Shown in pieces: positions 18,208 to 60,957 of a stretch of DNA of 64,000 bases. Under the pieces are notes generated by a model. That model made no database searches. It had not been told where the DNA came from and worked only from the letters and a program-made list of their open reading frames with translations. Position 1 is the stretch's first letter, and the number at the start of each line of letters is the position of its first letter. This DNA is from Siphonodentalium dalli (Eukaryota > Mollusca > Scaphopoda > Gadilida > Siphonodentaliidae), in NCBI GenBank assembly GCA_032622095.1, contig CP136062.1, forward strand, positions 33,356,918 through 33,420,917. The letters run 5' to 3'. A program made the position numbers and the translations under genes.

Positions 18208-18606
18208 TTAACCCTTTACCCAACAGAAGGGCCCTGTGCCAAGGCATTCTCTTATATATGCGAGTCGACCATAGGTCGCCTCGCATATATAAGAGAATGC
18301 ATTGGCTTAACACATTAAAAATTATAAAATTGTTAAAGAATGTAAGAAAAAATGGTAAAAAGTGTTAAAAAAAGATTTTGTTTAGGCCAATGCATTCTCT
18401 TATATATGCGAGGCGACCTATGGTCGACTCGCATATATAAGAGAATGCATTGGCACAGGGCATAACTGTAACCACCACAATGTGGTCAATGAACCGGTTC
18501 CAATGATATCCATATTTGTATGGTGTTATTGAGACAGCCGAAGATATTTTAGGCTGTTGAAGCTTTATTTGGGCGTTTTTGGCCGGTTTGTTGGGTAAAG
18601 GGTTAT
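18208..18606. mobile_element. piggyBac-type double-palindrome MITE, copy 2
   Basis: Spans 18212-18602 (391 bp) with CCCTTTACCCAACA / TGTTGGGTAAAGGG ends. Flanks are TTAA on the left and TTAT on the right, a one-base change. Both 67-bp palindromes are present in opposite orientation. Apart from a handful of substitutions it is identical to copy 1, which suggests recent spread. Confidence 0.88.
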
Positions 18607-22702: not shown

Positions 22703-23878
22703 GGTGTGACTAATTAGTGCCCGGGCACGCCCGGGCACGCCCGGGCAAGCCCGGGCACGCCCGGGCAGGTCTTGGTGGTCTCATGGGCCCGCAGACAGTC
22801 TAATATGATGCCATATGGTAGTAGGATACAGAATAAGCATATATTAGGAAAATTGACTTGCTGTGTCGTCCACCGGCGGGTTTATTAACCATTTAAATGC
22901 CGATATTGACTAAAAGAACCCGAGAGAGCCCAGACGGACGCATAGACCCGACCATATTATATATTGATGACTAATGGTAGCGAGGCACTTACTAAAGGTA
23001 TATATTGCAAATATTGACTCGCTATCTCGTTCGCGGCCGGCTTCATTAACCCCTTAAATGACGATATGCGCCAGAAGAACATGGCGCAAGCCCGGGCACG
23101 CCCGGGCAGGTCTTGGTGGTCTCATGGGCCCGCAGACAGTCTAATGTGATGCCATATGGTAGTAGGATACAGAATAAGCATATATTAGGAAAATTGACTT
23201 GTGTGTCGTCCACCGGCGGGTTTATTAACCATTTAAATGCCGATATTGACTAAAAGAACCCGGGAGAGCCCAGACGGACGCATAGACCCGACCATATTAT
23301 ATATTGATGACTAATGGTAGCGAGGCACTTACTAAAGGTATATATTGCAAATATTGACTCGCTATCTCGTTCGCGGCCGGCTTCATTAACCCCTTAAATT
23401 ACGATATGCGCCAGAAGAACATGGCGCAAGCCCGGGCACGCCCGGGCAGGTCTTGGTGGTCTCATGGGCCCGCGGATAGTCTAATATGATGCCATATGGT
23501 AGTAGGATACAGAATAAGCATATATTAGGAAAATTGACTTGCTGTGTTGTCCACCGGCGGGTTTATTAACCATTTAAATGCCGATATTGACTAAAAGAAC
23601 CCGGGAGAGCCCAGACGGACGCATAGACCCGACCATATTATATATTGATGACTAATGGCAGCGAGGCACTTACTAAAGGTATATATTGCAAATATTGACT
23701 CGCTATCTCGTTCGCGGCCGGCTTCATTAACCCCTTAAATGACGATATGCGCCAGAAGAACATGGCGCAAGCCCGGGCACGCCCGGGCAGGTCTTGGTGG
23801 TCTCATGGGCCCGCAGACAGTCTAATATGATGCCATATGGTAGTAGGATACAGAATAAGCATATATTAGGACTACGAA
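22703..23878 (+). repeat. Left terminal inverted repeat made of 341-bp tandem units
   Basis: After the terminal GCCCGGGCAC run, units start at GGTCTTGGTGGTCTCATGGG at 22768, 23109, 23449 and 23790 (spacing 341, 340, 341; the last is cut at about 23878). Units are nearly identical. Each carries CCACCGGCGGGTTTATTAAC, GACTCGCTATCTCG and ATGCGCCAGAAGAACATGG, so it holds two related half-units. Confidence 0.9.
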
Positions 23879-34818: not shown

Positions 34819-36526
34819 AGTGACGAGACTTAGACATACATTGAACTGTAACATGTAGTGACGAGACTTAGACATACATTGAACTGTAACATGTAGTGAC
34901 GAGACTTAGACATACATTGAACTGTAACATGTAGTGACGAGATTTAGACATACATTGAACTGTAACATGTAGTGACGAGACTTAGACATACATTGAACTG
35001 TAACATGTAGTGACGAGACTTAGACATACATTGAACTGTAACATGTAATGACGAGATTTAGACATACATTGAACTGTAACATGTAGTGACGAGATTTAGA
35101 CATACATTGAACTGTAACATGTAGTGACGAGACTTAGACATACATTGAACTGTAACATGTAGTGACGAGACTTAGACATACATTGAACTGTAACATGTAG
35201 TGACGAGATTTAGACATACATTGAACTGTAACATGTAGTGACGAGACTTAGACATACATTGAACTGTAACATGTAGTGACGAGACTTAGACATACATTGA
35301 ACTGTAACATGTAGTGACGAGATTTAGACATACATTGAACTGTAACATGTAGTGACGAGACTTAGACATACATTGAACTGTAACATGTAGTGACGAGACT
35401 TAGACATACATTGAACTGTAACATGTAGTGACGAGACTTAGACATACATTGAACTGTAACATGTAGTGACGAGATTTAGACATACATTGAACTGTAACAG
35501 GTAGTGACGAGATTTAGACATACATTGAACTGTAACATGTAGTGACGAGACTTAGACATACATTGAACTGTAACATGTAGTGACGAGACTTAGACATACA
35601 TTGAACTGTAACATGTAGTGACGAGATTTAGACATACATTGAACTGTAACATGTAGTGACGAGACTTAGACATACATTGAACTGTAACATGTAGTGACGA
35701 GACTTAGACATACATTGAACTGTAACATGTAGTGACGAGATTTAGACATACATTGAACTGTAACATGTAGTGACGAGACTTAGACATACATTGAACTGTA
35801 ACATGTAGTGACGAGATTTAGACATACATTGAACTGTAACATGTAGTGACGAGACTTAGACATACATTGAACTGTAACATGTAGTGACGAGATTTAGACA
35901 TACATTGAACTGTAACATGTAGTGACGAGACTTAGACATACATTGAACTGTACCATGTAGTGACGAGACTTAGACATACATTGAACTGTAACACGTAGTG
36001 ACGAGATTTAGACATACATTGAACTGTAACATGTAGTGACGAGACTTAGACATACATTGAACTGTAACATGTAGTGACGAGATTTAGACATACATTGAAC
36101 TGTAACATGTAGTGACGAGACTTAGACATACATTGAACTGTAACACGTAGTGACGAGATTTAGACATACATTGAACTGTAACATGTAGTGACGAGACTTA
36201 GACATACATTGAACTGTAACACGTAGTGACGAGATTTAGACATACATTGAACTGTAACATGTAGTGACGAGACTTAGACATACATTGAACTGTAACATGT
36301 AGTGACGAGATTTAGACATACATTGAACTGTAACATGTAGTGACGAGACTTAGACATACATTGAACTGTAACATGTAGTGACGAGATTTAGACATACATT
36401 GAACTGTAACATGTAGTGACGAGACTTAGACATACATTGAACTGTAACATGTAGTGACGAGATTTAGACATACATTGAACTGTAACATGTAGTGACGAGA
36501 CTTAGACATACATTGAACTGTAACAT
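34819..36526 (+). repeat. 38-bp satellite, 45 units
   Basis: The unit GTGACGAGACTTAGACATAC + ATTGAACTGTAACATGTA is repeated 45 times with very few substitutions. One position alternates: GAGACTT (C type) or GAGATTT (T type). In the first half the order is mostly C-C-T (114-bp trimer). From about unit 25 it becomes C-T (76-bp dimer), with a few extra or missing units. Private variants (ACACG, ACAGG, ACCAT, GTAATG) mark single units. Confidence 0.96.
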
Positions 36527-38231
36527 GCAGATCGTTCCGTTTGCTTTGATTACCACTTTCTGAAACATGCATTTCGTTTCAAGAGCAGATATATACATGT
36601 AGGAAGCCGATCGATAATGTTGACCAGTGAATGATATTTAATATGGTGTCAATATTTAAGCTGCACTTCTTGTTGGTAAAGCAAGAATATTCCCGAGGCG
36701 GACCAATAATCCGTAATCAACACTTACTCAATGGCAATTTTCAGTTATTTCCATGCATTGTGTACGTTTTATTAGACGATCTAATTTTCGTTACTTTCAA
36801 CTTACGGTCTTGAGACTGTCACTGAATAAATTATTTCAAACTGGAGAAATCCAACCAATACCAAGAGTGCGTTGCTCAACCAACCAATTGCTTCCTGCAA
36901 AACCATTAACTAATATTCACATTCACTCCTCATTCGACAATGATTATTGATACAAGCCCGTCCAATACTTCTAAAAATAATTAAGTAATACGGAAGGCGG
37001 ACGTGATGAATGAAAGCGAGGCTTTGCGATATCCAAATAATCGAAATTGCAATTAAGAACGTATTCCAACAAAAAATAGGTATATATTGACTCGGATTCG
37101 CTGAAACAAGAACAGTGGCATATTATACGTAGTGTATTTATAACTAGAAAATACGGATACGGCAATTCGTTTAAGTTTTTAATTAATGGGGGTTGAAGCG
37201 ACAACCATTGTTATTCACGCATGTATAGAGTTGTCGCACGTCAAACAAAACAGTAAACCTTACTCCCAAGTGTCATCGCACCATCCCTGACATTTGGCCC
37301 ACTGCATGCATTTCCAGTGTTAACGTGCTTTATTTGGAAACATGAATATTAATGAGCTGTCGCGAGAGGGGAATTCCCCGACCATCTCGGAAATGAATTT
37401 AAATACCGGTTTATCTAGACTGAGAGTTGACCGTAAGGAAACCTTGGTTTGGTTATATAATTAAACTGGCATTGTTTGCGGTCAATTGTATTATATATGA
37501 CGGTGAAAGTATGCGAAGAGTCCATTGCCAGAAACAAACTCGTCGTCGACTTGATGACGCTGGTAAAGAACCCTGCTTGTGATCGAACCCTTACTTGCAA
37601 TGCCAATACACCCCTGGTCGAGTTACTTTTTACTTTAAACATATTTTATTCGTATATAAATATACAAAAGGGATCGGGGCACAAGTTATCTCAACATAGG
37701 TAGCCACTCTCCCGTACAACATTGACAATACCTTGTTATAAAATGACAAGAAGGCGATAACAGAAACATTTGTACATGGTGAGAAAACAATTTGAGTTTG
37801 CATTATGTCGAATAACATCTTTCAACGTATGTGTTTATGGATTACCATTAGGACGAGCATAAATCTATGCATATCTATATCTATTTTGGTATAGTAGTGA
37901 ATTTGGCGATTCGCCCGATGACGCCCTTGACTGTTACGCTGGTCGAGTTGTCCTGCTATGCTATATATGATCTGATATTTATTAGCATAAAAACACTCGT
38001 GTGAGCCGAATGCATTACATAATAGAAGACATATAATTTACATAATTATACATACATAGTTCATATAATAAACTTTCAGCATTCAAACTATATTTATACA
38101 ATGTGACTTTGTAGAAACTCCATAATATAAGCGTGCAAATAACCTGTATGCTGACCTATGATATCGTGTGGAATAGAAAATAATTATTAATTCATTCCTC
38201 AATCACGGGCTTCTTCCCTCGTTTCAAAGAA
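36527..38231. other. Unassigned stretch
   Basis: Several short overlapping frames on both strands, none recognisable. No repeat structure seen. Confidence 0.4.
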
Positions 38232-39030: not shown

Positions 39031-39420
39031 TTAACCCTTTACCCAACAGAAGGGCCCTGTGCCAATGCATTCTCTTATATATGCGAGTCGACCATAGGTC
39101 GCCTCGCATATATAAGAGAATGCATTGGCTTAACACATTAAAAATTATAAAATTGTTAAAGAATGTAAGAAAAAATGATAAAAAGTGTTAAAAAAACATA
39201 TTTTTTAGGCCAATGCATTCTCTTATATATGCGAGGCGACCTATGGTCGACTTGCATATATAAGAGAATGCATTGGCACAGGGCATAACTGTAACCACCA
39301 CAATGTGGTCAATCAGCCGGTTCCAATGATATCCATATTTGTATGGTTCTATTGAGACAGACCGAAGATATTTTAGGCTGTTGAAGCTTTATTTGGCCGG
39401 TTGTTGGGTAAAGGGTTTAA
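39031..39420. mobile_element. piggyBac-type double-palindrome MITE, copy 4
   Basis: Spans 39035-39415 (381 bp) with TTAA on the left and TTTAA on the right. It has the same ends and both 67-bp palindromes (a single C-to-T change in the second). The short frames around it (38876-39136 minus) are products of the palindrome. Confidence 0.88.
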
Positions 39421-41337: not shown

Positions 41338-41415
41338 GTACTAGCAGGTTAGCCCGCCACTGGCGGCATTCGTCTCATGGCTTTGTTTCAGAAACATGAC
41401 ATTTTTTTAATTTAA

Positions 41416-41700
41416 CCAAATTTCAAGTCGATAGCTCCACCCGTTTCCGAGATCAGGTCTGCGCATGCGCGAAGCTTGTGTCGCACGGGCTCGGCGTCCC
41501 GATAAAATTCGTACCCGGGGCAAGATACATTCACATACCAAATTTCAAGTCGATAGCTCCACCGGTTTCCGAGATCTCGTCTGCGCATGCGCGAAGCTGG
41601 CGTCGCACGGACTCGGCGACCCGATAAAATTTGTATCCGGGGCAAGATACATTCACATAGCAAATTTCAAGTCGATAGCTCCACCCGTTTGCGAGATAAC
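41416..41700 (+). repeat. 122-bp tandem block, about 2.3 units (cluster unit 3)
   Basis: CCAAATTTCAAGTCGATAGC + TCCACCCGTTTCCGAGATC with TGCGCATGCGCGAAGC and GGGCAAGATACATTCACATA. Confidence 0.9.
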
Positions 41701-42253
41701 GCATTCTTTGTTTTTAAATGAGTTAATTCATGGTACCCGTCCTCCCCGTCCTAAACTTCAGAGCGGACAGTCAATTAATCCCGTCGTGAAATCCCTCTGC
41801 ATAATATTTCGAGCTCTTGGATCAATTCTGCCTTTTTAGTTGCATTTCGTCCGCATCCGTATTTCGGACGCATGGGGTCAGTCGTTTAGCCACGTCCATT
41901 GGATCCGCATCGGACGCATGGGGTATCGTTTAGCCACGTCCATTGCAATAAAGAGCGTTAATTGTCAAAACCTCCGTATAAGGTATAGATAAAGAGCGTT
42001 ATTGCATTAACCCCCCGCCGTGCCTTTGCGGTGATTTGGGAGTGGATAAAGGGTGCTCAGAGCTTCTCGAAAACACGACTACGGCGGTGTCGGTGTGATT
42101 TTACACTTACATACGAAATTTGATCTCAATATGTACACGCGTTTTGGATTCTATGAAGTACACACACACACACACACACATATATATACGAAGTCTCAAA
42201 ATATATAGTATAGACTAGCCGATGAGCCCGACGTTGTCCGGGCTATTCAAAAA

Positions 42254-43140
42254 CCAAATTTCAAGTCGATAGCTCCACCCGTTTCCGAGATCTGGTCTGC
42301 GCATGCGCGAAGATGGCGTCGCACGGGCTCGGCGACCCGATAAAATTTGTATCCGGGGCAAGATACATTCACATACCAAATTTCAAGTCGATAGCTCCAC
42401 CCGTTTCCGAGATCTCGTCTGCGCATGCGCGAAGATGGCACCGCACGGGCTCGGCGACCCGATAAAATTTGTATCCGGGGCAAGATACATTCACATAGCA
42501 AATTTCAAGTCGATAGCTCCACCCGTTTCCGAGATCTCGTCTGCGCATGCGCGAATCAAGCGCCGCACGGGCTCGCCAATACGACAACGTCGACCGCCTG
42601 GTCAGACTACACACACATACCAAATTTCAAGTCGATAGCTCCACCCGTTTCAAAGATCTCGTCTGCGCATGCGCGAAGCTGGCGTCGCACGGGCTCGGCG
42701 ACCCGATAATTTTTTTATCCGGGCCAAGATACATTCACATACCAAATTTCAAGTCGATAGCTCCACCCGTTTCCGAGATCTCGTCTGCGCATGCGCGAAG
42801 CTGGCGTCGCACGGGCTCGGCGACCCGATAAAATTTGTATCCGGGGCAAGATACATTCACATACCAAATTTCAAGTCGATAGCTCCACCGTTTCCGAGAT
42901 CTCGTCTGCGCATGCGCGAAGCTGGCGTCGCACGGGCTCGGCGACCCGATAAAATTCGTATCCGGGGCAAGATACATTCACATACCAAATTTCAAGTCGA
43001 TAGCTCCACCCGTTTCCGAGATCTGGTCTGCGCATGCGCGAAGCGGGCGCCGCACGGGCTCGCCAATACGACAACGTTCACCGCCTGGTCAAACTACACA
43101 CACGTACCAAGTTTCGTCTCGATCGGTCAAGAATCGTAGA
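42254..43140 (+). repeat. 122-bp tandem block, 7.3 units (cluster unit 4)
   Basis: Unit starts lie at 42254, 42376, 42498, 42620, 42742, 42864, 42985 and 43107, i.e. 122-bp steps with a single 1-bp loss. Two units (from 42498 and 42985) share the CGCCAATACGACAACGT variant in place of GGCGACCCGATAAAATT; it also appears in the last unit of the other blocks, so it marks a 3' end-type unit. The many frames on both strands shift from unit to unit because 122 is not a multiple of three. Followed by (GACA)n at 43152-43180. Confidence 0.93.
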
Positions 43141-47290: not shown

Positions 47291-50200
47291 TCGGAGGCGT
47301 ATAAGGAGGTTTATAATGAGGTTTATAAGAAGGTTTATGGGGAAGTTTATACGGAAATTTATAATGAAGTTTATAAGGAGCTCTACAAGCATGTTTATAA
47401 GGAGGTTTATAAGGAGGTTTATAATGAGGTTTATAAGGATGTTTATAAGTAGGTTTATAAGTAGGGTTATAAGAAGGTTTATAAGGAGGTTTATAAGGAG
47501 GTTTATAAGGAGGTTTATAAGGATGTTTATAAGGATGTTTATAAGTAGGTTTATACGTAGGGTTATAAGAAGGTTTATAAGGAGGGTTATAAGGATGTTT
47601 ATAAGGATGTTTATAAGTAGGTTTATACGTAGGGTTATAAGAAGGTTTATAAGGAGGTTTATAAGGAGGGTTATAAGGATGTTTATAAGTAGGTTTATAA
47701 GGAGGTTTATAAGGATGTTTATAAGTAGGGTTATAAGACGGTTTATAAGAAGGGTTATAAGAATGTTTATAAGGAGGTTTATAAGGAGGTTTATAAGTAG
47801 GGTTATAAGACGGCTTATAAGGAGGTTTATAAGGATGTTTATAAGTAGGGGTATAAGACGGTTTATAAGGATGTTTATAAGTAGGGTTATAAGGAGGTTT
47901 ATAAGGAGGGTTATAAGAATGTTTATAAGGAGGTTTATAAGGAGGTTTATAGGGATGTATATAAGGAGGTTTACAATGAGGTTTATAAGGAAGTTTATAA
48001 GCAGGTTTAAAGGAGGTTTATAAGGAGGTTTATAAGGAGGTTTATAAGGAGGTTTATAAGGAAGTTTATAAGCAGGTTTAAAAGGAGGTTTATAAGGAGG
48101 TTTATAAGGAGGTTTATAAGGAGGTTTATAAGCAGGTTTAAAAGGAGGTTTATAAGGAGGTTTATAAGGAGGTTTATAATGAGGTTTATAAGGAGGTTTA
48201 TAAGGAGGTTTATAAGGAGGTTTATAAGGAGGTTTATAAGGAGGTTTATAAGGAGGTTTACTAAGAGGTTTAAAGGAGATTTATAATGATGTTTATAAGT
48301 AGGTTTATAAGGATGCTTAAAAGGAGGGTTATAAGAAGGTTTATAAGTAGGTTTATAAGTAGGTTTATAAGGAGGTTTATAAGGAGGTTTATAAGGAGGT
48401 TTATAAGGAGGTTTATAAGGAGGTTTACTAAGAGGTTTAAAGGAGATTTATAATGATGTTTATAAGGAAGTTTATTATGAGGTTTATAAGGATGTTTATA
48501 AGGATGTTTATAAGTAGGTTTATAAGTAGGGTTATAAGAAGGTTTATAAGGATGTTTATAAGTAGGTTTATAAATAGGGTTATAAGAAGGTTTATAAGGA
48601 GGTTTATAAGGAGGTTTATAAGGGGGTTTATAAGGATGTTTACCCGGAGGTTTACCAGGAGGTTTAAATGAGATTTATAATGAGGTTTATATGGAAGTTT
48701 ATTATGAGGTTTATAAGGCGGTTTATAAGGAGGTTTATATGAAAGTGTATAAGGAGGTTTATCAGGTGGTTTAAAAGGAGGTTTATAAGGAGGTTTATAA
48801 TGAGGTATATAAGGCGTTTTTTAAGGAAGTTTATAAGGAGGTTTATAAGGAGGTTTATAAGGAGGTTTAAAAGGAGGTTTATAAGGCGGTTTATAAGGAT
48901 GTTTATAAGGATGTTTATAAGGAGGTTTATAAGGAGGTTTATAAGGATGTTTATAAGGATGTTTATAAGGATGTTTATAAGGATGTTTATAAGGATGTTT
49001 ATAAGTAGGTTTATAAGGAGGTTTAAAAGGAGGTTTATAAGGAGGTTTATAAGGATGTTTATAAGAAGGTTTATAAGGATGTTTATAAGGATGTTTATAA
49101 GGATGTTTATAAGGATGTTTATAATGAGGTTTATAATGATGTTTATAAGGAGGTTTATAAGGAGGTTTATAAGGAGGTTTATAAGGATGTTTATAAGGAG
49201 GTTTATAAGGATGTTTATAAGGATGTTTATAAGGATGTTTATAAGGATGTTTATAAGGATGTTTATAAGTAGGTTTATAAGGAGGTTTATAAGGATGTTT
49301 ATAAGGAGGTTTATAAGAAGGTTTATAAGAAGGTTTATAAGGAGGTTTATAAGGAGGTTTATAAGGAGGTTTATAAGGATGTTTATAAGGATGTTTATAA
49401 GTAGGTTTATAAGAAGGTTTATAAGAAGGTTTATAAGGAGGTTTATAAGGAGGTTTATAAGGATGTTTATAAGGATGTTTATAAGGATGTTTATAAGGAT
49501 GTTTATAAGGAGGTTTATAAGGATGTTTATAAGGATGTTTATAAGGAGGTTTATAAGAAGATTTATAAGAAGGTTTATAAGGAGGTTTATAAGGAGGTTT
49601 ATAAGGAGGTTTATAATGAGGTTTATAATGATGTTTATAAGGAGGTTTATAAGGAGGTTTATAAGGAGGTTTATAAGGATGTTTATAAGGAGGTTTATAA
49701 GGATGTTTATAAGGATGTTTATAAGGATGTTTATAAGGATGTTTATAAGGATGTTTATAAGTAGGTTTATAAGGAGGTTTATAAGGAGGTTTATAAGGAT
49801 GTTTATAAGGAGGTTTATAAGTAGGTTTATAAGAAGGTTTATAAGAAGGTTTATAAGGAGGTTTATAAGGAGGTTTATAAGGATGTTTATAAGGATGTTT
49901 ATAAGGATGTTTATAAGTAGGTTTATAAGAAGGTTTATAAGAAGGTTTATAAGGAGGTTTATAAGGAGGTTTATAAGGATGTTTATAAGGATGTTTATAA
50001 GGATGTTTATAAGGAGGTTTATAAGGATGTTTATAAGGATGTTTATAAGGATGTTTATAAGTAGGTTTATAAGAAGGTTTATAAGAAGGTTTATAAGGAG
50101 GTTTATAAGGAGGTTTATAAGGAGGTTTATAAGGAGGTTTATAAGGAGGTTTATAAGGAGGTTTATAAGGAGGTTTATATGGAGGTTTAAAAGGAGGTTT

Positions 50201-53200
50201 AAAAGGAGGTTTATACGTAGGGTTATAAGAAGGTTTATAAGTAGGTTTATAAGGATGTGTATAAGGATGTTTATAAGGAGGTTTATAAGGATGTTTATAA
50301 GGATGTTTATAAGGAGGTTTATAAGGATGTTTATAAGGAGGTTTATAAGGATGTTTATAAGGAAGTTTATAAGGTGGTTTATAAGGAGGTTTATAAGGAG
50401 GTTTATAAGGAGGTTTATATGGAGGTTTATAATGATGTTTATAAGGAGGTTTATAAGAAGATTTATAAGAAGGTTTATAAGGAGGTTTATAAGGAGGTTT
50501 ATAAGGAGGTTTATAATGAGGTTTATAATGATGTTTATAAGGAGGTTTATAAGGATGTTTATAAGGATGTTTATAAGGATGTCTATAAGGATGTTTATAA
50601 TGATGTTTATAAGGATGTTTATAAGGATGTTTATAATGATGTTTATAAGGAGGTTTATAAGGAGGTTTATAAGGAGGTTTATAAGGATGTTTATAAGGAG
50701 GTTTATAAGGATGTTTATAAGGAGGTTTATAAGGAGGTTTATAAGGAGGTTTATAAGGAGGTGTATAAGGAGGTTTATAATGAGGTTTATAAGGAGGTTT
50801 ATAAGGATGTTTATAAGGATGTTTATAAGGATGTTTATAAGGAGGTTTATAAGGAGGTTTATAAGGATGTTTATAAGGATGTTTATAATGATGTTTATAA
50901 GGAGGTTTATAAGGAGGTGTATAAGGAGGTTTATATGGATGTTTATAAGGAGGTTTATAAGGAGGTTTATAAGGAGGTTTATAAGGAGGTTTATAAGGAG
51001 GTTTATAAGGAGGTGTATAAGGAGGTGTATAAGGAGGTTTATAAGGAGGTTTATAAGGAGGTGTATAAGGATGTTTATAAGCAGGTTTATAAGTAGGGTT
51101 ATAATGAGGTTTATAAGTAGGGTTATAAGGAGGGTTATAAGGAGGCTTATAAGGAGGTTTATAAGAAGGTTTATAAGGAGGTTTATAAGGAGGTTTATAA
51201 GGAGGTTTATAAGGATGTTTATAAGGAGGTTTATAAGGAGGTTTATGAGGAGGTTTATGAGGAGGTTTATAAGGAGGTTTATAAGGAGGGTTATAAGGAG
51301 TTTTATATGGAGGTTTATAAGGAGGTTTATAAGGAGGTTTATAACGAGGTTTATAACGAGGTTTATAAGGAGGTTTATAACGAGGTTTATAACGAGGTTT
51401 ATAAGGAGGTTTATAAGGAGGTTTATAACGAGGTTTATAACGAGGTTTATAAGTAGGGTTATAAGGATGTTTATAAGGATGTATATAAGGAGGGTTATAA
51501 GTAGGTTTATAAGGAGGATTATACGGAGGTTTATAAGGAGGTTTATAAGGAGGTTTATACGGAGGTTTATAAGGAGGTTTATAAGGAGGTTTATAAGGAG
51601 GTTTATATGGAGGTTTATAAGGATGTTTATAAGGATGTTTATAAGGAGGTTTATAAGGAGGTTTATAAGGAGGTTTATAAGGAGGTTTATAAGGAGGTTT
51701 ATATGGAGGTTTATAAGGATGTTTATAAGGAGGTTTATAAGGAGGTTTATAAGGAGGTCTATAAGGAGGTTTATAAGGCGGTTTATAATGAGGTTTATAA
51801 GGAGGTTTATAAGGAGGTTTATAAGTAGGTTTATAAGGAGGGTTATACGGAGGTTTATAAGGAGGTTTAAAAGGAGGTTTATAAGGAGGTTTATAAGGAG
51901 GTTTATAGGGAGGTTTATAAGGATGTTTATAAGGAGGTTTATAAGTAGGTTTATAAGGAGGTTTACAAGGAGACTTATAAGCAGGTTTATAAGGAGGTTT
52001 ATCAGGAGGTTTATAAGGAGGTTTATAATGAGGTTTATAAGGAGGTTTATAATGAGGTTTATAAGGAGGTTTATAAGGAGGTTTATAAGGAGGTTTATAA
52101 GTAGGTTTATAAGGAGGTTTATAAGGAGGTTTATAAGTAGGGTTATAAGGAGGTTTATAAGTAGGTTTATAAGGAGGTTTATAAGGATGTCTATAAGGAG
52201 GTTTATAAGTAGGTTTATAAGGAGGTTTATAAGGAGGTTTACAAGGAGGTTTACAAGGAGGTTTATAAGGAGGTTTATAAGGAGGTTTATAAGGATGTTA
52301 TAAGGATGTTATAAGGAGGTTTATAAGGATGTTTATAAGGATGTTTATAAGGAGGTTTATAAGGAGGTTTATACGGGGGTTTATAAGGAGGTTTATAAGG
52401 ATGTTATAAGGAGGTTTATAAGTAGGGTTATAAGAAGGTTTATAAGGAGGTTTATAAGGAGGTTTATAAGGAGGTTATAAGTAGGTTTATACGTAGGGTT
52501 ATAAGGAGGTTTATAAGTAGGGTTATAAGAAGGTTTATAAGGAGGTTTATAAGTAGGTTTATAAGGATGTTTATAAGGAGGTTTATAAGGATGTTTATAA
52601 GGATGCTTAAAAGGAGGTTTATAAGGAGGTTTATAATGATGTTTATAAGGATGTTTATAAGGAGGTTTATAAGGATGTTTATAAGGAGGTTTATAAGGAT
52701 GTTTATAAGGATGCTTAAAAGGCGGTTTATAAGGAAGTTTATAAGGAGGTTTATAGGGAGGTTTATAAGGAGGTTTATTAGGAGGTTTATTAGGAGGTTT
52801 ATATGGAGGTTTATAAGGAGGTTTATAAGGATGTTTATAAGGATGCTTAAAAGGAGGGTTATAAGAAGGTTTATAAGGAGGTTTATAAGGAGGTTTATAA
52901 GGAGGTTTTAAGGGGGTTTATAAGGAGGTTTACAATGAGGTTTATAAGGAGGTTTATAAGGAGGTTTATATGAAGTTTATTATGAGGTTTATAAGGAGGT
53001 TTATAATGACGTTTATAAGGGGGTTTATAAGGAGGTTTACCAGGAGGTTTACTAGGAGGTTTAAAGGAGATTATAATGATGTTTATATGGAGGTTTATTA
53101 TGAGGTTTATAAGGAGGTTTATAAGAAGGTTTATAAGGAGGTTTATAAGGAGGTTTATAAGGAGGTTTATAAGGGGGTTTATAAGGAGGTTTACTTGGAG

Positions 53201-54186
53201 GTTTAAATGAGATTTATAATGATGTTTATAAGGAAGTTTATTATGAGGTTTATAACGAGGTTTATAAGGAGGTTTATAAGTAGGTTTATAAGGAGGTTAA
53301 TAAGGAGGTTTATAAGGAGGTTTATATGGAAGTTTATTATGAGGTTTATCAGGTGGTTTACTAGGAGGTTTATAAGGAGGTTTATAAGGAGGTTTATAAG
53401 GAGGTTTATAAGGAGGTTTATATGGAAGTTTATACGGAGGTTTATAAGGAGGTTTAATGGAGATTTATAATGATGTTTATAAGGAGGTTTATTGTGAGGT
53501 TTATAAGGAGGTTTATAAGGAGGTTTATATGGAAGTTTATTGTGAGGTTTATAATGATGTTTATAAGGATGTCTATAAGGAGGTTTACAATGAGGTTTAT
53601 AAGGAGGTTTATAAGGAGGTTTATATGAAGTTTATTATGAGGTTTATAAGGAGGTTTATAATGAGGTTTATAAGGGGGTTTATAAGGAGGTTTACCAGGA
53701 GGTTTAAATGAGATTTATAATGATGTTTATAAGGAAGTTTATTATGAGGTTTATAAGGAGGTTTATAAGGAGGTTTATATGGAAGTTTATTGTGAGGTTT
53801 ATAAGGCGGTTTATAAGGAGGTTTATATGGAAGTTTATACGGAGGTTTATAAGGAGGTTTATATGAAGTTTATTATGAGGTTTATAAGGAGGTTTATAAG
53901 GAGGTTTATATGAAGTTTATTATGAGGTTTATAAGGAGGTTTATAAGGATGTCTATAAGGAGGTTTACAATCAGGTTTATAAGGAGGTTTATATGAAGTT
54001 TATTATGAGGTTTATAAGGAGGTTTATAAGGAGGTTTATATGAAGTTTATTATGAGGTTTATAAGGAGGTTTATAAGGAGGTTTATACGGAAGTTTATCA
54101 GAAGGTTTATAAGGATGTTTATAAGGATGTTTATGGGGAAGTTTATAAGGATATTTATCATGAGGTTTAGAAAGAAGTTTATAAGC
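47291..54186 (+). repeat. 6.9-kb minisatellite, 12-bp unit (~570 units)
   Basis: The consensus is GGAGGTTTATAA, with three frequent unit types: GGAGGTTTATAA, GGATGTTTATAA and GTAGGTTTATAA, and less often TGAGG, CGAGG or AATGAGG forms. The core (about 48800-52300) keeps a strict 12-bp phase; both edges are more varied and contain longer composite units (GGAAGTTTATTATGAGG, GGAGGTTTAAA-GGAGATTTATAATG). The listed strand has almost no C. Unit types follow longer patterns: the segment starting ATAATGAGGTTTATAATGATG recurs at 49121, 49613 and 50513, i.e. 41 and 75 units apart. Confidence 0.97.
48800..52303 (+). other. 1,167-codon open frame generated by the 12-bp array
   Basis: In this frame the array reads as the tetrapeptide Ile-Arg-Arg-Phe, with Ile-Arg-Met-Phe and Ile-Ser-Arg-Phe variants, for more than 1,100 residues. 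A second plus frame reads Tyr-Lys-Glu-Val (open 50257-51096 and 51607-51828, otherwise stopped by TAG in GTAGG units). The minus strand reads Lys-Pro-Pro-Tyr and Asn-Leu-Leu-Ile, and I see no stop of the TTA/CTA/TCA type in the Lys-Pro-Pro-Tyr register over this interval. Openness on both strands, no non-repetitive domain, no signal peptide and no promoter or splice context argue that this is not a gene. An extremely basic protein of this kind would also be unprecedented as far as I know. Confidence 0.85.
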
Positions 54187-55684
54187 ACCCCTTAACACCC
54201 TGAACACCCCCTAAGGCTGGAACAGTTCCAACTGATATGGAGTTCAGACCAAATTTCGCACTAAATATAGAAAAATTATTTGTCCCGTAGTCTAGTTGTG
54301 AATGTTGAGTTGGCCGTGTACGGGAACAAATGTGAGTCAGGAAGGTTTGCAACTGTTATATTTTAAATAAGTCTCCGTCGGTAAGCACTATGTTTTATAG
54401 ATATCTTGGTGGTAGCAATGTTCAGGGTGAAGTCCAGCTCCCTCTCGAAAACGGGTAGTTATTTCCAAAGCTGGTGGTATCATGTGTCAAAATAAGGTCT
54501 GAGGTATCATGATATCCTTGTTATCTATACTATCACTATAACGTATATCACACTATTGTTACTGGATTATTCTACTCTTCTACTCATACCGTTGCTGTAT
54601 AATGAGTACAACCATTCATCAACAATTAATATATTATCTTGTTAATTATGTGTGTACGCTCGTATTCTATAACTATACTATTGTATGTAATATCGGACAT
54701 ATGCGACTGTTGGTTTAAAAACAACAAATTTCCCATTAATTATTGTTTGGAATAAAAAACAAGGATTGAGAACAACTTATACCTATAATGTTGAGAATCA
54801 TTTACAACGAATGTTTCGTGAGGCATTAAATTTTCCAAACACCCAAAATAAAAATAAAACTCTTACACCCTGGTGATAAATACCTCTCTCACCCTGGTGA
54901 TAATACGACTGTTGTGATGCCTACAGTCTATATTATCTATCCGCTTTAAAACTCAAATCCCAAGCTTGATACATAGCTTGATAGCTGTCAGTCTCTGATG
55001 TGAGCACGGCCGCTTACCTTCTCCAGATTTGCGATACCACTGGGAAATTAACTGCATATGACTTATTCACACAAAGAAAATGATACATCACTGTGAAAGC
55101 TGCATGTTCAAAACATGGTTTGAAATTCGAGTTGCAGAATCCGGTCTTGTTTCCTGTGCATGGTAAATACCTGTATAACCAATCAGCTACCAAGCGCGAA
55201 CATATCGAAGATACAAACACAGCCTGGAGGAGTGGAAATCCATCACAATCGCAGACGACACTTCGATGGTAATGAAGGGTTATAACGTGTACTAATGATT
55301 TGTGTATAGAGCAGATTATCGGTGGGAAAACTCCTCGTTGTGAGTCTCTCTTCCTGAAAAAAATCTATGCCATTGATTTGCACTGATGCTAAGCTGAGCA
55401 TTGTTTTTGAATTTTTGTCACTGTTAATCTCTACTCCGGCTACGCACGTAGACATCATATTCCACTATTTCAACACCTGATAACGTTTTGATGTTCTGAT
55501 GGGGAATGTTGTAACATTAAACTTGCAACGCAGGGAATATATGTATGTGTAAATAACTTTTCCCTAAAACTATATTTCACTGTATGGATTGTACCAGCTC
55601 GGGGGTTGTCTTATCTTTGTGACACCTGTGAGCCGATATCACAATAAACATTAAGTTAATAACAATGGATAAATGGATGATTAT
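54187..55684. other. Unassigned stretch
   Basis: Begins with CACCCCTTAACACCCTGAACACCCCC directly after the array. The short frames at 55014-55220 and 55243-55458 (minus) show no recognisable domain. CACCCTGGTGATAA occurs twice near 54870-54905. Confidence 0.45.
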
Positions 55685-60250: not shown

Positions 60251-60802
60251 TGAATCCTGTAAACCTGTAAATATGGTCATATGACTATCAATTAGCAGAG
60301 GGGTATGAATCCTGTAAACCTGTAAATATGGTCATATGACTATCAATTAGCAGAGGGGTGTGAATCCTGTAAACCTGTAAATATGGTCATATGAATCCCG
60401 AGTATTAATTAGCAATGAGCAGAGGGGTATGAATCCTGTAAACCTGTAAATATGGTCATATGACTATCAATTAGCAGAGGGGTATGAATCCTGTAAACCT
60501 GTAAATATGGTAATATGAATATAAATTAGCAGAGGGGTATGAATCCTGTAAACCTGTAAATATGGTCATATGAATCCCGAGTATTAATTAGCAATGAGCA
60601 GAGGGGTATGAATCCTGTAAACCTGTAAATATGGTCATATGACTATCAATTAGCAGAGGGGTATGAATCCTGCAAACCTGTAAATATGGTCATATGAATC
60701 CCGAGTATCAATTAGCAATGAGCAGAGGGGTATGAATCCTGTAAACCTGTAAATATGGTCATATGAATCCCGAGTATCAATTAGCAGAGGGGTATGAATC
60801 CT
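60251..60802 (+). repeat. Mixed 55/69-bp tandem repeat, 9 units
   Basis: GAATCCTGTAAACCTGTAAA + TATGGTCATATGA is followed either by CTATCAATTAGCAGAGGGGT (short unit, 55 bp) or by ATCCCGAGTATTAATTAGCA + ATGAGCAGAGGGGT (long unit, about 69 bp). Long and short units are interspersed. The last unit is cut at GAATCCTGC. Confidence 0.93.
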
Positions 60803-60957
60803 GCATGCGTACCAATTCAAACTTCCGCTGTCCAGACGGAGGGGTGGGCGGGTTTCGCACCCCAACAAACGGACTCGTAGACGTCAATTGTGCGAACTTA
60901 TTTTATGTCGGAGTTCATTTTGCAAAATGTGTCCAATGTCACACAACACGCTCACGA

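Follow-up and report, generated by a model that had tools for sequence, protein, structure and literature searches.

The question raised by this locus is whether a 6.9-kb array of 12-bp units, with reading frames open over kilobases on both strands, encodes a protein or has kept those frames through copying alone. The array lies in a window of 64,000 nucleotides, the whole stretch of DNA analysed here (C2:33356918-33420917), from the 2.227-Gb genome of Siphonodentalium dalli, which is assembled in nine contigs. Positions are those of this window unless a contig or a fetched locus is named.

Extent and Composition of the Array

47293 to 54185, unit TATAAGGAGGTT on the plus strand: 12-bp minisatellite array of 577 units, identified by TRF and alignment

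TRF places the array at 47300-54185 with a period of 12, 575.5 copies and 88% matches. Wraparound alignment to TATAAGGAGGTT moves the left limit to 47293, and the array then consists of 556 full 12-bp units, 19 gapped units and two partial end units. The first-pass annotation, which had put the array at about 570 units of 12 bp, is confirmed in this respect, the repeat being far beyond chance. Its description of the units as a three-letter alphabet is incorrect, since 72 distinct types occur among the 556 full units; the commonest are the consensus GGAGG type (217), GGATG (90), GAAGG (26) and GTAGG (26), the third of these being as common as the type that had been counted among the main three. 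The plus strand is almost without C (80 of 6,896 bases). The array also holds TAAGGAGGT 225 times and AAGGAGGTTTATAATG 12 times, motifs that resemble a bacterial ribosome-binding site before an ATG; by this analogy, the array might undergo accidental translation if cloned in E. coli.

All 70 genome matches to an exact 26-base unit pattern, which would miss diverged copies elsewhere, fall inside the array, and none is found on the other strand. A genome search with an 84-base query built from the unit types likewise gave a match at the array locus alone. Literature searches found no report of the 12-bp repeat of this array, from which we do not claim the absence of any report.

Core, Edges and Growth of the Array

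48676 to 52287: young homogenised core of 301 units and 39 types, with no indel
47293 to 48675: diverged left edge with four gapped units, three of them of the TA-..GAGATT family
52288 to 54185: diverged right edge with 15 gapped units

When the array is divided into blocks of 40 units, the seven middle blocks contain 4-14 unit types each and six of the other eight contain 15-20, while changes per unit range from 0.55 to 0.93 in the middle blocks and from 0.78 to 1.88 in the other eight. The longest exact internal duplication spans 14 units (beginning at 49120 and 49612). The TA-..GAGATT family of gapped units in the left edge is also present in the right edge, and the presence of one indel family at either side points to an older array within which the core expanded. 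A tandem array that grows by slippage or unequal exchange while its centre is homogenised is expected to look like this. The rare unit TATGGGGAAGTT, with two copies in all, is found at both ends (47324-47371 and 54120-54167) and is followed each time by a unit ending in ATT, suggesting that the ends share an old block.

Open Reading Frames and Codon Positions

48743 to 52303, plus strand: Ile-Arg-Arg-Phe (IRRF) frame, 1186 aa from stop to stop, judged non-coding
48821 to 52297, minus strand: Lys-Pro-Pro-Tyr (KPPY) frame, 1158 aa without a Met codon, judged non-coding
48664 to 52308, minus strand: Asn-Leu-Leu-Ile (NLLI) frame, 1214 aa, judged non-coding

Four frames had been claimed to stay open over kilobases, which holds for the three listed but not for the fourth, Tyr-Lys-Glu-Val (YKEV); this frame has 62 stops in the 556 full units and a longest stretch of 283 aa in the list of frames of at least 120 aa, and is therefore non-coding over the array. 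The same count of full units gives one stop in IRRF, none in NLLI and two in KPPY. No frame is open across the whole array, with 20 edge gaps of lengths other than multiples of three shifting every frame. Open frames are not unexpected here, because the unit equals four codons and two of the frames have no stop within one step: the number of stop-making changes among the 36 possible single changes of the unit is zero for IRRF and for NLLI, three for KPPY and four for YKEV, and the consensus unit itself already holds a stop in the two remaining frames. The openness of IRRF and NLLI thus follows from the make-up of the unit. Met codons number 98 in the IRRF frame and zero in the KPPY frame. Pfam searches at an E value of 0.01 returned no match in 20 frames, namely two frames of the array and 18 of the 101 non-array ORFs of at least 75 aa; those 18 gave no recognisable gene in the vicinity of the array, and no RNA family reached the Rfam gathering score.

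Substitution events were inferred with a nearest-commoner-type rule, which overcounts them if exchange reshuffles variants, and the 81 events of the whole array are distributed 25:30:26 over the codon positions in the YKEV phase. The other phases carry the same three numbers in a different order, so that no frame has a clear third-position excess, and synonymous events account for 18 of the 81 in YKEV, 21 in IRRF, 24 in KPPY and 20 in NLLI. Within the core (295 full units), third positions hold 47 of 199 changes in IRRF, 29 in KPPY and 47 in NLLI, and second positions hold 123 of 199 in both IRRF and KPPY; this third-position pattern is not that of a conserved protein. Raw unit counts by YKEV codon position look periodic (130:90:252), which we attribute to repeated copying of a small number of G-to-T unit types, and YKEV is moreover the frame that contains stops. 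Coding in any of the four frames was rejected, as codon positions and stops give it no support.

Phase and Indels

The perfect phase noted earlier over 3.5 kb of the core was recovered as an indel-free stretch of 3,631 bp, the longest in the array. The 20 indel events are confined to the edges, with no length among them divisible by three. The 19 gapped units form about five or six families by the context of their neighbouring units, a grouping that is our own reading; the seven copies of one family are divided between the left and right edges, and another family has six copies on the right side.

Nineteen control arrays, hand-picked from the TRF lists of the same genome rather than comprising every array, place this phase in context. 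Eight of the 19 have no indel, including four of the 12 with a 12- or 24-bp period and four of the seven with a period that is not a multiple of three. Largest among the indel-free controls of the latter kind is a 38-bp array in the window (34819-36527; 45 units), and a 32-bp array of 21 units in the window is also free of indels. Arrays whose period is not a multiple of three can thus keep phase too, so that perfect phase needs no reading frame, and the idea of coding that the strict phase suggests is not supported. The finding that none of the 20 indels is a multiple of three says little, because such indels are rare in the controls as well (4 of 104 events).

Indels are nevertheless scarcer in the core than the pooled controls predict. 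Raw substitutions per indel amount to 25.1 for the whole array versus 1.5-15 across the 11 controls with indels. The core contains 26 kinds of substitution and no kinds of indel, compared with 210 and 46 in the 19 pooled controls and 92 and 16 in the seven whose period is not a multiple of three. The pooled-control ratio predicts four to six kinds of indel in the core, and the crude Poisson P for none is about 0.003 to 0.01, a value drawn from very uneven controls in which eight of 19 have no indel and a few have many; the indel-free core therefore counts mildly against a neutral account. The array's own ratio is about 81 substitution events to five or six indel families, from which two or three independent indels would be expected in a core with 41 events. 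The P for none is then about 0.07 by our own estimate, and on this ratio the indel-free core is not improbable.

Flanking Sequence and Other Arrays in the Genome

54281 to 54667, plus strand: dispersed repeat of about 390 bp, located about 95 bp to the right of the array

The dispersed repeat in the right flank was found in at least 41 other places (40 of 1,253 candidates scored), and the left flank has 11 weak matches elsewhere among the matches listed. None of six fetched copies of the right-flank repeat (of the at least 41) has a 12-bp array within 1.6-1.8 kb, and none of four fetched left-flank matches (of the 11 listed) has one within 1.0-1.1 kb. The possibility that the array is part of a mobile element was rejected, given that the fetched flank copies lack it. 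Separately, the right-flank repeat recurs at steps of about 6.9 kb in two groups on contig C1 (C1:264589351-264610445 and C1:265445235-265473245), with four and five copies among those listed and in opposite orientations, as if within a large tandem repeat.

Tandem arrays are common in this genome, with 36 arrays occupying 11,878 of 144,000 bases in 18 evenly spaced 8-kb samples; eight of the 36 have a period that is a multiple of three. A six-frame genome search with the peptide read at the left end of the array gave 146 matches at the array itself and at least 17 other places (150 of 3,046 candidates scored). Fifteen of the 17 other places were fetched, and every one contains a 12- or 24-bp array according to TRF. 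Coding paralogues elsewhere were accordingly rejected as a candidate for these places; each was judged from its TRF rows and its two longest frames, and may yet hold genes. The peptide search favours arrays rich in Y and V and is therefore uninformative on how common 12-bp units are.

Several of the arrays seen along the way share units or neighbouring sequence. The 12-bp unit AAAGGGTTATAT, or its reverse complement by rotation, occurs in about 326 copies at C2:217633600-217637900 (L014) and in at least about 382 copies at C7:164770000-164774600 (L019), where the array extends beyond the fetched start. Another 12-bp array, of ATTTCATTCCAT, is found at two places on C7, at positions 640-785 and 2318-2475 of locus L008 and as the reverse complement at 894-1075 of L007. 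L007 and the 2318-2475 array of L008 have flanking translated sequence in common, and a dispersed element may therefore carry some of the minisatellites of this genome. At 1236-1283, 18326-18373 and 39149-39196 of the window and at 634-681 of L005 there is a 48-bp stretch of 22-bp period with an identical or near-identical consensus, which is perhaps part of a dispersed element. The window also contains arrays at 34819-36527 (38 bp), 41415-43062 (122 bp), 22745-23871 (341 bp) and 60251-60803 (55-179 bp). Contig C2 begins with 1.5 kb (C2:1-1500; L020) of a 26-bp satellite in about 58 copies, and the telomere repeat is absent from the TRF listing of this locus.

Near-Invariant TA and Alternative Explanations

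Two positions of the unit, T1 and A2, are each changed in one of the 556 full units (at 53299 and 48820, respectively), a count that omits the 19 gapped and two partial units and hence the gapped unit at 52908, which is aligned with A2 missing. The other ten positions are changed in 8-143 units each, and all 30 possible changes occur at them. Of the 57 events inferred at the eight A/T positions, two fall on T1 and A2 (uncorrected P = 1.5e-5). In the strictest count, which takes every kind of change a single time, P is 2.6e-4 for this pair, rising to 0.003 when the 12 adjacent pairs are allowed for and to 0.017 for all 66 possible pairs. Among singletons one step from a commoner unit, two of 28 fall at T1 or A2, which is not clearly short. 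Two unchanged positions are likewise present in the array at L018 (66 units), one example of unchanged positions in other arrays of this genome.

One way to read the core is as a coding exon of a minus-strand protein built from Lys-Pro-Pro-Tyr repeats, of a type likened to those of tyrosine-rich adhesive proteins. The KPPY frame runs for its 1158 aa without a stop, its two stops in 556 units compare with 34.9 expected (sd 5.7) if random change is assumed to be uniform over positions and bases, and the core has fewer indels than the pooled controls predict. The shortage of stops, however, arises because T1 and A2 are near-invariant: the one-step stops of this frame are T1>A, A2>T and A2>C. The only changes seen at the two positions, T1>A and A2>T, are both stop-making in KPPY, and the synonymous A2>G (TAT to TAC) is absent from all 556 units; selection on KPPY therefore does not explain the invariance. 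Third positions of the frame hold just 29 of the 199 core changes, it has no Met codon, and the seven gapped units next upstream on the minus strand (52288-53062) each lose one base, except for one that loses two. We give a KPPY exon the smallest chance of the readings considered here. The same two positions could be constrained as DNA, the array being kept as protein-binding or structural sites in which the TA step is essential. Their near-invariance, set against the 30 changes seen elsewhere in the unit, and the near absence of C from the plus strand are consistent with such sites, but the constraint touches only two of twelve positions, with G6, G7 and G9 varying freely, and both the unchanged positions at L018 and the singletons speak against it. 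Selection for DNA sites is a slight prospect, if a little less so than the exon.

In the YKEV phase the tyrosine codon begins with T1 and A2, and the array might descend from a plus-strand coding tetrapeptide Y-x-x-(V/I/L), with ends that keep the old pattern around a core that is a non-coding expansion. The feature at issue is the following:

47300 to 47452, plus strand: left-end units, in which the YKEV frame reads YKEVYNEVYKKVYGEVYTEIYNEVYKELYKHVYKEVYKEVYNEVYKDVYK up to the first TAG

In this phase the array is Y-x-x-V-like at each of its ends, reading YNGIYSEAYKEVYNEVYKKVYGEVYTEIYNEVYKEL and YTEVYQKVYKDVYKDVYGEVYKDIYHEV, and the changes in 22 end units are distributed 11:4:18 over codon positions 1:2:3. 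This is weakly indicative of coding, being the order expected of it, and the left-end units are weak candidates for a coding relic; the signal comprises 33 changes in a phase that was chosen afterwards. Against such a descent, substitution events over the array as a whole are spread evenly among codon positions, six of the 81 make stops, G, A and D all occur at the V position, and all 15 of the other places fetched from the peptide search carry 12- or 24-bp tandem arrays. Descent from a coding tetrapeptide is accordingly very unlikely, though marginally less so than DNA sites. Taken on its own, the near-invariance of TA could reflect either a binding platform with an essential TA step or the remains of a Y-x-x-V gene with its tyrosine codon bases fixed, which together we regard as improbable; chance among units of shared ancestry is another possible reading.

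Nature of the Array

PMC3152781 defines minisatellites as tandem repeats whose units measure 10 to about 100 bp. The array corresponds to this class in its 577 units of 12 bp arranged head to tail, its single locus, its old diverged edges and its homogenised core, and differs in its two near-invariant positions and in three frames open for more than 1,100 codons. It has the most units of the arrays examined, the next being L019. With protein-coding tandem repeats, of which the tyrosine- and lysine-rich adhesive proteins are an example, it shares a four-codon unit and the 1158 open codons of KPPY. Unlike them, it has frameshifted edges, no Met in KPPY, no frame open from end to end and no excess of third-position or synonymous change; as to indels, 0 of 20 in the edges are multiples of three, and the core has none, fewer than the uneven pooled controls predict. 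A homogenised core and diverged edges are also features of centromeric and pericentromeric satellite DNA, whereas this array is one 6.9-kb locus that contains all 70 exact pattern matches, and searches with the exact 26-base pattern and with the 84-base query revealed neither many nor very long arrays across the genome.

We therefore consider it very probable that the array is an ordinary, non-coding, single-locus minisatellite that evolves neutrally. A short, diverged 12-bp array would have grown in whole units by replication slippage or unequal exchange, with the middle expanding latest and becoming homogenised and older units being left at both edges. An open frame in one unit would persist for as long as units are copied whole, 12 bp being four codons, and with no one-step stop in IRRF and NLLI and three in KPPY, these frames could persist without selection. 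Both this mechanism of copying and the lack of function are what we infer from the pattern. The neutral account, with a recently expanded and homogenised core, was also the one favoured in the first-pass annotation, and it gains support from control arrays that keep phase with periods other than multiples of three, from a centre with fewer unit types than most edge blocks, from edge indels that belong to a small number of families, duplicated along with the adjacent units, and from codon positions without a coding signature. The points contrary to it are a core freer of indels than the pooled controls predict and the near-invariance of T1 and A2.

The presence of long open frames in such a 12-bp array is thus weak evidence for coding, as a four-codon unit with few one-step stops can stay open for kilobases through copying alone, and some arrays of this genome hold their phase equally well with periods that are not multiples of three. 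The near-invariant TA is the one feature of this array that merits specialist attention.
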